Part shown: positions 8,366 to 17,830 of the stretch, piece by piece | How the letters are laid out: the number at the start of each line of letters is the position of its first letter | Numbering within the stretch: the stretch's first letter is position 1 | NCBI GenBank assembly: GCA_027490195.1 | Contig: JAIXYN010000012.1 | Location: 1-64,000 of the forward strand | Direction: 5' to 3' | DNA length: 64,000 bases | Source: Verrucomicrobiaceae bacterium | GTDB lineage: Bacteria > Verrucomicrobiota > Verrucomicrobiia > Verrucomicrobiales > Verrucomicrobiaceae | Notes under the pieces: model-generated | Seen by the model: the letters and a program-made list of their open reading frames with translations, nothing else | What the model was told of the DNA's origin: nothing | Database searches by the model: none | Program-made: the position numbers and the translations under genes

Positions 8366-9511
8366 ATGTGGTTTATGAATTCTGCTCAAACCATTGATTC
8401 ACAGGCGCTCCCGATCGAGGAACAGCTCGTTGGTGTGAATGCGAAAACGGTGCTCTATCCAGGCGCGCGTTCGTGGTCGGGGGGGAGGCATCGCATCTTG
8501 GGCAAGGGGCCGTTGGAGTCTTACTGTTACCATGTCATGTCTCGCACCTGCGGTGGCGAGGTGTTTTTTGATGACGTGGAGAAGGAGGCTCTGCGGCGGG
8601 TGATCTGGCGCATGGCGGAGTTCTCGGGCATCAAGGTGGTGACTTACTGCCTCATGGGGAATCATTTCCATCTGCTGGCCGAGGTGCCGCAGCGGGGGTT
8701 GTGGTTGCAGCGCTTTGAGGGGACCGACGGTGAGGCGAAGTTGTTTGAGCATCTGAGCATTCTCTACAGTCGGGACTACCTGAAGCTGCTGCGTGATGAG
8801 ATGGCGGACTGGCGTGCGCGTGGCATGGCGGTGATGGCGGAACAGAGGCTGGAGTCGCTGAAGAAGCGCTTCTGCGATTTGTCCTTGTTCGTCAAGGAAG
8901 TGAAGGAACGATTCAGTCGCTGGTTTAACAAACGGCGCGGGCGTCGAGGCACGCTGTGGATGGATCGCTTCAAGAGCGTGCTGGTGGAGGGCAGGGGCGA
9001 AGCGTTGCGCACGATGGCGGCGTACATTGATCTGAATCCGGTGCGTGCTGGATTGGTCAAGGACCCAAAGGAGTATCGCTGGTGTGGGTATGCGGAGGCG
9101 CTGGGCGGCAGCCGCAGGGCGCAGCGTGGCCTGTGTAAAGCTCAGGGTAAACCTGTGGATGGCTGGAAGAGCGCCGGGGCGGCGGAAGCGTACCGCTGCC
9201 TGCTGCATGCGGAGGGGCGCGAAGTGAAGGACGCGCAGAATGAGAAGGTGGTCGAACGCGGTGTGAGCGCGGAGTCAGCACGGGCCGTGTTGGCGGAGAA
9301 AGGCAAGCTTAGTCTGGCGGAGCTGGTGCGTCTGCGTGTGCGCTATTTCAGCGACGGGTTGGTGCTGGGGAGCCGCGAGTTCGTTGAGAGTGTGTTTGAT
9401 GGGAATCGGGAGATGTTTGGTCCGAAGCGCAAGCGGGGCAGCCGTCGGATGGTGGAGTCTGAGGTGCCGTTTTACACGCTGCGTCAACTGCGTCTCAAGC
9501 CGCTGGGGTAA
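8366..9511 (+). CDS. REP-associated tyrosine transposase-like protein (Y1/HUH superfamily)
   Basis: SYCYHVMSRTCGGE...GIKVVTYCLMGNHFHLLAEVP (HxH motif) and YIDLNPVRAGLVKDPKEYRWCGYAEALGG, typical of RAYT proteins. Confidence 0.88.
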   Translation: MWFMNSAQTIDSQALPIEEQLVGVNAKTVLYPGARSWSGGRHRILGKGPLESYCYHVMSRTCGGEVFFDDVEKEALRRVIWRMAEFSGIKVVTYCLMGNHFHLLAEVPQRGLWLQRFEGTDGEAKLFEHLSILYSRDYLKLLRDEMADWRARGMAVMAEQRLESLKKRFCDLSLFVKEVKERFSRWFNKRRGRRGTLWMDRFKSVLVEGRGEALRTMAAYIDLNPVRAGLVKDPKEYRWCGYAEALGGSRRAQRGLCKAQGKPVDGWKSAGAAEAYRCLLHAEGREVKDAQNEKVVERGVSAESARAVLAEKGKLSLAELVRLRVRYFSDGLVLGSREFVESVFDGNREMFGPKRKRGSRRMVESEVPFYTLRQLRLKPLG

Positions 9512-15209: not shown

Positions 15210-16517
15210 ATGAAACAGGAACTTGCCTCCAAACTCGTCCGCTCAGGTGAAATCACCCGGCGTGATTTCGCTGCCAAGACCGCCAGCTCCCTCCTCGGAG
15301 TCGGTCTGCTTGGCCAGTCGCTCACCACCAAATCCTTTGCGGCCTTTGAGGGTTCCTCGAAGCTCAAGCAGGCAGCCACAGCGAAGAACGTCATCTATCT
15401 CTACATGAGCGGTGGTCAGTCCCACATGGACACCTGGGATCCGAAGGAAGGCGTAGAAACCGCCGGCCCGACCAAGCCCATCAAGACCAGCGCGGACGGC
15501 GTACGCATCTCCGAATACCTGCCGCTCACTGCGCAGCAGATGCACCACGGCACGGTGATCAATTCCCTCACCTCCACGCAGGGCGCGCACGAGCAGGGCA
15601 ACTACATGATGCACACCAGCTATGAGATGCGCGGCACCATCCGTCATCCCGCCATGGGTGCCTGGCTCAATGTGTTCCAAGGCGGTGGCAACAGCACGCT
15701 GCCGAACTTCGTTTTCATCGGCAATGACAGCCGCCATCCCGGCGCGGGCTTCTTCCCTGCGGCGCAGGCCCCGCTGTTTGTCAGCAATCCTGAAAACGGA
15801 CTCAAGAACATCAAGAACGGCAGCCCTGAAGACAAATTCCAAGCCCGCATGAAGCTGGCGGATGAGCTCGATAAGGATTTCCGCACCACCTTCCCGCACC
15901 GCAATGTGAAGGCCTATGCCGACATGTATGATGATGCCATGGCCATGATGAAGTCCGAAGACCTCAAGGCCTTCGACCTCACGGAAGAGCCCGGCGAACT
16001 CCGTGCCGCCTACGGCAAGGAAGCCTTCGGTCAGGGCTGCCTCCTCGCCCGCCGTCTGGTGGAGCGCGGTGTGCGCTTCGTCGAAGTCTCACTTGGTGGC
16101 TGGGACACCCACAACGCCAACTTTGTGGCTGTGCCAGACCGTTGCGAAACCCTCGACAAGGGCCTCGCCACACTCGTCGCCGATCTGCACAATCGCGGTC
16201 TGCTTGAGGATACTCTCATCGTGCTGAACTCCGAGTTCGGCCGCACGCCTGACATCAATCAGAATGCCGGTCGTGACCACTATCCGAAGGCGTTCTCCGG
16301 CGTCATGTTCGGTGGTGGCGTCAAAGGCGGCTTCACCTACGGCAAGACCGACAAGGAAGGCCGCGAAGTTGTCGAAGACAAAGTCAAGATCATGGACTTC
16401 AACGCCTCCATCGCCTACGCGCTGGGTCTGCCGCTGGACCAGGTCATCTACAGCCCGAGCAAGCGTCCGTTCACGATTGCCGACAAGGGGCAGCCGATTA
16501 CGAACCTCTTCGCGTAA
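15210..16517 (+). CDS. DUF1501 family protein, Tat-type signal
   Basis: ITRRDFAAKTASSLLGVGLLG twin-Arg; YLYMSGGQSHMDTWDPK, GWDTHNANF, LNSEFGRTPDINQNAGRDHYPKAFS. Adjacent to the DUF1549/1553 gene as is usual for this pair. Confidence 0.9.
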   Translation: MKQELASKLVRSGEITRRDFAAKTASSLLGVGLLGQSLTTKSFAAFEGSSKLKQAATAKNVIYLYMSGGQSHMDTWDPKEGVETAGPTKPIKTSADGVRISEYLPLTAQQMHHGTVINSLTSTQGAHEQGNYMMHTSYEMRGTIRHPAMGAWLNVFQGGGNSTLPNFVFIGNDSRHPGAGFFPAAQAPLFVSNPENGLKNIKNGSPEDKFQARMKLADELDKDFRTTFPHRNVKAYADMYDDAMAMMKSEDLKAFDLTEEPGELRAAYGKEAFGQGCLLARRLVERGVRFVEVSLGGWDTHNANFVAVPDRCETLDKGLATLVADLHNRGLLEDTLIVLNSEFGRTPDINQNAGRDHYPKAFSGVMFGGGVKGGFTYGKTDKEGREVVEDKVKIMDFNASIAYALGLPLDQVIYSPSKRPFTIADKGQPITNLFA

Positions 16518-16540: not shown

Positions 16541-16572
16541 AAACACGCGATGCCGGAAGGTGTCGCGTGTTT
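16541..16572 (+). terminator. Possible terminator hairpin after DUF1501 gene
   Basis: AAACACGCGA ... TCGCGTGTTT perfect 10-bp stem, 12-nt loop; only a short T run follows. Confidence 0.45.
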
Positions 16573-16585
16573 TGCGTTGGGGGGG

Positions 16586-16684
16586 CGAAAGCCCAACGGG
16601 CTTTCGTATTTGAGCCCAGGGTTCGAAGAACCCTGGGTTACCGATCTACCGTGGCCTCTTTCGCGTGCAACTCCAACGGAGTTG
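16586..16684 (+). repeat. Left hairpin array flanking Y1 transposase
   Basis: Three hairpins: CGAAAGCCC-AAC-GGGCTTTCG (16586-16606), CCCAGGGTTC-GAA-GAACCCTGGG (16615-16637), CAACTCC-AAC-GGAGTTG (16668-16684). Confidence 0.85.
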
Positions 16685-16697
16685 AGTCCGCCGTCGA

Positions 16698-17171
16698 ATG
16701 ATCCAAAACTTGCGCATGCCACAATCCATTGCCCGAGTTTTGATTCACACGGTGTTCTCCACCAAGGGGCGTGAACCCTCTTTCCACGATCCGGCGTTTC
16801 GCTCTGAGGTGTACGCGTATCTGGGCGGGTGCGCCAAGACGCTCGACTGCCTGCCCATCCAGATCGGCGGTGTCGCGGATCACGTGCATCTTCTGACCAC
16901 GTTGTCTCGCACGTTGGCGATGGCGGAGTTTGTGAAGGAGATCAAACGTGTCTCCACCAATTGGATTCAGAAGCGAGGTGGATTGTTCGGCCAGTTTCAC
17001 TGGCAGGCCGGGCATGGATGTTTCTCGGTGTCCGAATCTAATTTGAGCGCCGTATCGCGATACATTTCGAGACAGGAAGAGCACCATCGAAAGATCACGT
17101 TTCAGGAGGAATACCGTGAGTTGTTGCGACGCCATGGACAGACCTGGGATGAAGCATATGTGTGGGATTGA
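16698..17171 (+). CDS. Short IS200/RAYT-like Y1 transposase (157 aa)
   Basis: ARVLIHTVFSTKGREPSF...IQIGGVADHVHLLTTLSRTLAMAEFVKEIKRVSTNWI...FHWQAGHGCFSVSESNLSAVSRYISRQEEHH: HVHLL HUH motif and C-terminal catalytic Tyr region. Start could be 16716. Confidence 0.85.
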   Translation: MIQNLRMPQSIARVLIHTVFSTKGREPSFHDPAFRSEVYAYLGGCAKTLDCLPIQIGGVADHVHLLTTLSRTLAMAEFVKEIKRVSTNWIQKRGGLFGQFHWQAGHGCFSVSESNLSAVSRYISRQEEHHRKITFQEEYRELLRRHGQTWDEAYVWD

Positions 17172-17201
17172 AGATTGCCTGTGGCGCGGCGGCGGTGGAC
17201 A

Positions 17202-17300
17202 CAACCACGTTGTGGTTGGTCCTTGAGAGAACAAGATGATGGGGCCTGTACCCAGGGTTCTTCGAACCCTGGGCTTAAATACGGAAGGCCTTTGGCCTTC
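17202..17300 (-). repeat. Right hairpin array, mirror image of the left one
   Basis: CAACCAC-GTT-GTGGTTG (17202-17218), CCCAGGGTTC-TTC-GAACCCTGGG (17251-17273), GAAGGCC-TTT-GGCCTTC (17284-17300). Confidence 0.85.
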
Positions 17301-17335
17301 ATGGAACCTGCTCACGGCATACTATACCCGGCACT

Positions 17336-17370
17336 CGGTACATGCACACGGTACATGCACACGGTACATG
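17336..17370 (+). repeat. 13-bp tandem repeat, about 2.7 copies
   Basis: CGGTACATGCACA CGGTACATGCACA CGGTACATG. Confidence 0.85.
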
Positions 17371-17383
17371 TCTTGCCACAGCC

Positions 17384-17830
17384 TCACCCCTTCGTCTTCT
17401 TCACCAGCTTCACACCCTCGATGCGCATCTTTTTGTCCGCTGCTTTGCACATGTCGTAAATGGTGAGGGCGGCGATGGAGACGGCGGTGAGGGCTTCCAT
17501 TTCGACGCCGGTGGGGGCGACGGTGATGGCGGTGGCGGTGATGTGGATGGCTTTGGGCCGTACTTCAAAATCGACCTGCACTTTGCTCAGCGGGATCTGA
17601 TGGCAGAGGGGGATGAGGTATTGCGTCTGCTTGGCGGCCTGGATGCCGGCGATGCGGGCGATGCTGAGGACGTCGCCTTTTTTGACCTGGTTTTTGCGGA
17701 TGAGATCGAGCGTGGCGGGCTGGAGCAGGATGCGGCCTTCGGCGATGGCTTCACGGCGCACGGGGGGCTTGGCGGAGACATCGACCATGGCGGCTTCGCC
17801 TTTGCGATTGAGGTGGGTGAGCTGGCTCAT
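17384..17830 (-). CDS. moaC: Cyclic pyranopterin monophosphate synthase MoaC
   Basis: LTHLNRKGEAAMVDVSAKPPVRREAIAEGRI...IPLCHQIPLSKVQVDFE...TGVEMEALTAVSIAALTIYDMCKAADK. Confidence 0.96.
   Translation of the reverse strand: MSQLTHLNRKGEAAMVDVSAKPPVRREAIAEGRILLQPATLDLIRKNQVKKGDVLSIARIAGIQAAKQTQYLIPLCHQIPLSKVQVDFEVRPKAIHITATAITVAPTGVEMEALTAVSIAALTIYDMCKAADKKMRIEGVKLVKKTKG

Follow-up and report, generated by a model that had tools for sequence, protein, structure and literature searches.

Mirrored three-hairpin arms around a Y1 transposase gene in Verrucomicrobiaceae: a probable REPtron-like unit

What kind of element is formed when a small HUH/Y1 transposase gene stands between two hairpin arrays that mirror each other? 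The question was raised by a sequence-only reading of a 64,000-nt stretch of Verrucomicrobiaceae DNA (hereafter, the window), which described six hairpins around such a gene. The mirrored architecture was confirmed and lies far from chance. Every letter of the six hairpins is present, and their order and loop polarity are as claimed: they run H1-H2-H3 and then H3'-H2'-H1' around the gene, with three perfect hairpins in each arm (16586-16684 and 17202-17300) and A-rich loops on the strand reading toward the gene (Table 1). The claim that the array is mirrored with its core kept in inverted orientation is borne out by a 50-nt inverted repeat between the arms, 90% complementary. A small correction concerns the string given there as CGTATTTGAG, whose leading CG is part of the 9-bp stem of the left H1. 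The core pattern has 0 chance occurrences expected within the 64-kb window, and folding of the arms as single-stranded DNA gave z-scores of -5.8 and -6.4 against shuffled sequences. A search of the unit against Rfam returned no family match.

Table 1 Features of the unit, with positions in the window
Feature	Position	Strand	Sequence or remark
Left outer hairpin H1	16586..16606	+	CGAAAGCCC-AAC-GGGCTTTCG
Left spacer H1/H2	16607..16614	+	TATTTGAG; conserved AG foot of H2 at 16613-16614
Left central hairpin H2 (core)	16615..16637	+	CCCAGGGTTC-GAA-GAACCCTGGG
Left inner hairpin H3	16668..16684	+	CAACTCC-AAC-GGAGTTG
Tag 3' of left H3	16685..16689	+	AGTCC (most relatives: CGTCC)
157-aa HUH/Y1 single-strand transposase	16698..17171	+	Pfam Y1_Tnp, E 4e-19
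Tag after right H3	17197..17201	-	TGTCC (minus strand)
Right inner hairpin H3'	17202..17218	-	CAACCAC-AAC-GTGGTTG (minus strand)
Right central hairpin H2' (core)	17251..17273	-	
Right spacer	17274..17283	-	CGTATTTAAG, AG-ended (minus strand)
Right outer hairpin H1'	17284..17300	-	GAAGGCC-AAA-GGCCTTC (minus strand)

The unit sits in the gap between two convergent genes, one at 15210-16517 (+), presumably of the DUF1501 type, with its 3' end facing the unit, and one at 17384-17830 (-), which we take to be moaC. In another genome (G018), a homolog of the unit (L028, 2742-3422) likewise has a DUF1501 gene upstream of it, one that shares 64% identity with that of the window, though moaC is elsewhere; this setting reflects either the same ancient site or a site preference. 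The right arm is adjoined by a tandem repeat of about 13 nt in three copies (GCACACGGTACATG, 17331-17370), and the matching side in G029 carries a run of about eight GGCACAT units. Y1_Tnp also matched weakly (E 7e-5) at 8522-8692 in the window, inside a 388-aa frame; the grammar search described below found no three-hairpin flank around it.

As for the protein, the 157-aa frame named in the earlier reading does match the Y1 family. Its predicted structure (mean pLDDT 84) is closest in fold to the TnpA proteins of IS608 and ISDra2 (E about 1e-7), followed by the REP transposase 4er8 (1e-4), and its best profile relatives are TnpA proteins of IS200/IS605. It falls below the cut-offs of both the NCBIfam IS200 profile (48.8 vs 55) and the REP_Tyr_transpos profile (17.8 bits vs 80). 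The motifs DHVH, WQ and YISRQEEHH are present, and the catalytic residues, with Y122 as the predicted catalytic tyrosine, are invariant among the homologs, 183 of 188 of which carry Y---Q--[HR]H and none of 188 the RAYT motif Y---NP. A conserved C-terminal segment ends in DERYVWD in most of them. These traits agree with subclass 1.2 of TnpA-Y1 as published, with the motifs DH[IV]H, WQ and Y---Q--HH, a length of about 148 aa with a short conserved C-terminal extension, and a low copy number with copies of low identity within one genome (PMC6006769). The own genome has four matches to the protein but no near-identical second copy; for the two others measured in full, identity to the window copy is 43-45%. 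By its sequence, the window protein is thus assigned to subclass 1.2 and not to the classical RAYTs (class 2), whose Y---NP it lacks. One published trait does not fit: subclass 1.2 was described as lacking REP and, in general, terminal structures too, in a sample mostly of Cyanobacteria and Bacteroidetes (PMC6006769), and arms occur around most homologs here.

The affinities of the protein in profile and fold, and the empty sites seen in several relatives, would be explained if the unit were an ordinary autonomous insertion sequence of the IS200/IS605 kind whose subterminal hairpins are unusually complex. The two ends of an IS200/IS605 element have a single hairpin apiece and are not known to mirror each other, whereas those of the present unit do. 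The divergence of the own-genome homologs, where measured, and the missed IS200 cut-off also speak against such an element. Comparison of the DUF1501-moaC site found the unit in one orientation in the own genome (G000) and in G020, deletion remnants in G001 and G027, and neither unit nor remnant in G011, G047, G012, G030, G003 and G010. Only the left boundary can be placed from these empty sites, as the rest of the intergenic region diverges; precise excision was not seen, and the G001 remnant resembles an ordinary deletion. Most other orthologous pairs, among copies with recognisable orthologous flanks, keep one site and orientation, and a match over 80% of the protein was found in just 2 of 72,556 plasmid records and in one distant phage record. 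The locus is therefore mainly inherited vertically, like RAYTs, and the window copy is a low-copy locus kept at one site. An ordinary insertion sequence is, on balance, distinctly unlikely.

The arms are not a peculiarity of the window. Mirror flanks were detected in 87 of 108 homologs from 96 related genomes (protein identity 41-100%), where the left flank had to align better with the reverse-complemented right flank than in all 10 shuffles, and in 69 of 78 homologs from GTDB records, compared with 20 shuffles; these homologs and arms are of common ancestry, so the counts are not independent. The titles of the 78 records name Verrucomicrobia, Planctomycetota, Hydrogenedentota, Calditrichota, Armatimonadetes, Acidobacteria, Bacteroidetes and others, and titles of MAGs can be wrong. 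Roughly one homolog in five from the relatives has no detectable mirror flanks, and neither does either Flavobacterium copy, Bacteroidota being covered by a few loci. Since the published sample consisted mostly of Cyanobacteria and Bacteroidetes (PMC6006769), and the Flavobacterium copies are without mirror flanks, there is no conflict with the present data.

The hairpin letters vary among subfamilies, and a common grammar runs through them: H1, 6-15 nt, H2 with an AG foot, 15-50 nt, H3. With the AG included, 176 of 376 arms (129 of 188 loci) conform to it, compared with 0 of 736 ordinary stretches of the own and related genomes and 0 of the 13 further Y1 loci in the own genome. When the AG condition is dropped, 192 real arms follow the grammar, against 4 of 1128 shuffled flanks, and AG directly precedes H2 in 171 of these 192. 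The foot of H2 reads TGAG and TAAG in the window, where the GT[AG]G expected of RAYTs at the 5' foot of the hairpin is lacking; GTAG occurs in some subfamilies (e.g., L152 and L106), and AG alone is general. A second signal lies in the tags, as those of H1 and H3 match at 2.65 of 5 positions, compared with a permuted mean of 1.59 and a maximum of 1.84. The likeness of tags and H2 stems climbs with protein identity, which fits the prediction for a cognate pair. The data support the arms as a general property of subclass 1.2, cognate to the transposase and kept across many phyla. The sequence-only reading had judged this a specific architecture worth defining, and with arms that are cognate to the enzyme, conserved in many phyla and found gene-less in relatives, that judgement was justified. 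A search of the open-access literature turned up no description of flanking elements in subclass 1.2. CGTCC, the usual tag after H3 in the window's subfamily, resembles the CGTC-tagged REPs, which have no known transposase (PMC3733652); a link between the two is only an idea.

Arms of this kind could also act mainly as RNA or transcription elements, i.e., as terminators or mRNA stabilisers of the transposase or of its convergent neighbours. The position between convergent genes would suit such a role, and secondary functions of this kind are common among REPs in other settings (PMC3733652). However, the stems behave differently from RNA helices, which would tolerate wobble. In the 24 arms of the window's subfamily, 99.1% of the stem cells pair, and 57 stem changes are double and 0 one-sided. 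The absence of any G-U step among them favours DNA over RNA hairpins. Moreover, the arms covary with the protein, and the DUF1501 gene already has a terminator-like hairpin of its own ahead of the array, at about 16543-16574. A primarily RNA-level function is highly improbable.

Do the arms also occur without the gene? The earlier reading proposed to count the core genome-wide, with and without the transposase, and held the occurrence of the core only here against its own idea. In the own genome, the core lies at two places, both flanking the window transposase, so dispersal was sought in relatives. There the outcome differs: the core is present in 26 of 48 genomes of the genus, often away from the transposase gene. 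"Only here" is thus literally true of the own genome and fails in the genus. Complete mirrored units of six hairpins without the transposase, about 260-310 nt long, were found in relatives, for example at L156, L157, L158, L245, L252 and L257. One of them (L157) has an empty counterpart in G007, where the genes on either side adjoin at the orthologous site with no unit between them. The stretch absent from G007 begins and ends close to H1 and H1', with these limits accurate to about 15 nt, given an identity of about 80% between the two species in this region. The comparison rests on G007; G032 was shorter and the G016 stretch did not align, and neither was used. REPIN-like dispersal is therefore seen in relatives and not for the window's own core within its own genome. 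The own genome does show it, as dispersed H2, for a sister subclass 1.2 transposase (L003, G000:C24:147541-148587), which has about 30 dispersed hairpins of its cognate H2 type, compared with 0 in the control. These hairpins (CAGCCCAGGGC...GCCCTGGG, 30 places in G000) are a moderately abundant REP-like family.

The units have also been rearranged in place. At the DUF1501-moaC site of G029, the centre (H2-H3-gene-H3-H2) is inverted, and both outer H1 hairpins are unmoved. A second, independent inversion separates L037 from L175: the flanks are colinear and a 660-bp centre is flipped with the same geometry. The breakpoints of both fall in the arms, which have about 30-38 bp of identity, and host recombination across these repeats explains both inversions as well as the enzyme does. 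The transposase might be a domesticated or decaying passenger, with inversions and gene-less units arising only from host recombination and deletion between long inverted repeats, and the remnants in G001 and G027 would agree with this. Against it stand the purifying selection on the gene (dN/dS 0.04-0.24), the covarying arms and the discrete gene-less unit of L157 with its empty orthologous site, which point to a system that is active, or was so at least in the past. A mere passenger is unlikely.

The unit is most probably a REPtron-like system built on a subclass 1.2 HUH/Y1 transposase, with a tripartite "REP" and miniatures moved in trans. Counting against this reading are the two core copies of the window family in its genome, the lack of a precise excision among the sites compared and the homologs without mirror flanks. 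Most likely, the arms on either side of the gene would be bound and cut by the protein when folded as single strands, e.g., on the lagging-strand template, with each arm serving as a tripartite recognition site and the two arms delimiting the unit in mirror image. Where TnpA_REP and IS608 TnpA cleave is guided by a tetranucleotide that lies 5' of the hairpin, and in TnpA_REP the AG of GTAG has been proposed to select CT for cleavage (PMC8266576). The AG foot of H2 would correspond to the last two bases of this GTAG guide, and because it is conserved in that place, H2 would be the REP proper. H1 and H3, which appear to bear a common, subfamily-specific tag, may be added recognition modules and could mark cleavage sites. 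Six-hairpin units without the gene would be miniature elements mobilised in trans, as REPINs are thought to be moved by RAYTs. A further-reaching version, in which subclass 1.2 uses a REPIN-like two-part code across phyla (the AG-footed H2 and the H1/H3 tag) and the enzyme, by cutting the mirrored arms, can invert the gene that encodes it between the outermost hairpins, is tentative and rather doubtful.

An orphan subclass of single-strand DNA transposases thereby gains a concrete cognate substrate with a readable grammar, which makes its activity directly testable. IS200-like (class 1) enzymes are tied to a REPIN-like lifestyle so far known from class 2, a link that bears on how RAYTs became domesticated. 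Furthermore, cleavage sites may become predictable from the tag common to H1 and H3.

Among known systems, REPtrons, i.e., REPINs (defined in PMC3116915) with their class 2 RAYTs, come close in several respects. In both, inverted palindromes enclose an HUH/Y1 protein, gene-less mirrored pairs of the cognate palindromes are dispersed as well, the gene is mostly low-copy and vertically kept, and the hairpin has an AG or GTAG foot. In contrast, the window transposase has Y---Q--HH instead of Y---NP, and its arm of about 100 nt holds three ordered hairpins and a second type of tag instead of one hairpin of 20-40 nt with GT[AG]G. The label "REPtron-like" is therefore apt by analogy, for the cognate arms and gene-less units, and not by family definition. 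TnpA-Y1 subclass 1.2 (Quentin et al. 2018, PMC6006769) shares all motifs, the length of about 150 aa with a C-terminal extension and the low copy number; unlike its published description, mirrored arms are the rule in Verrucomicrobia, Planctomycetota and other records. IS200/IS605 elements such as IS608 and ISDra2 share the fold, the catalytic residues and subterminal hairpins, but the window unit is without TnpB and is not multi-copy. TIRtrons, with their TIRYT genes, resemble it in flanking a Y1 gene with long terminal inverted repeats, some of which contain palindromes; many of these TIRs have GGGGWSAS in common, and no three-hairpin grammar appears in the text consulted (Di Nocera et al. 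2013, PMC3733652). Moreover, 20 of 26 TIRYTs belong to subclass 2.1, with HTH tails (PMC6006769). By this comparison, the REPtron/REPIN-like working would be the known part, and the arms for subclass 1.2 and the tripartite recognition unit appear to be what is new here.
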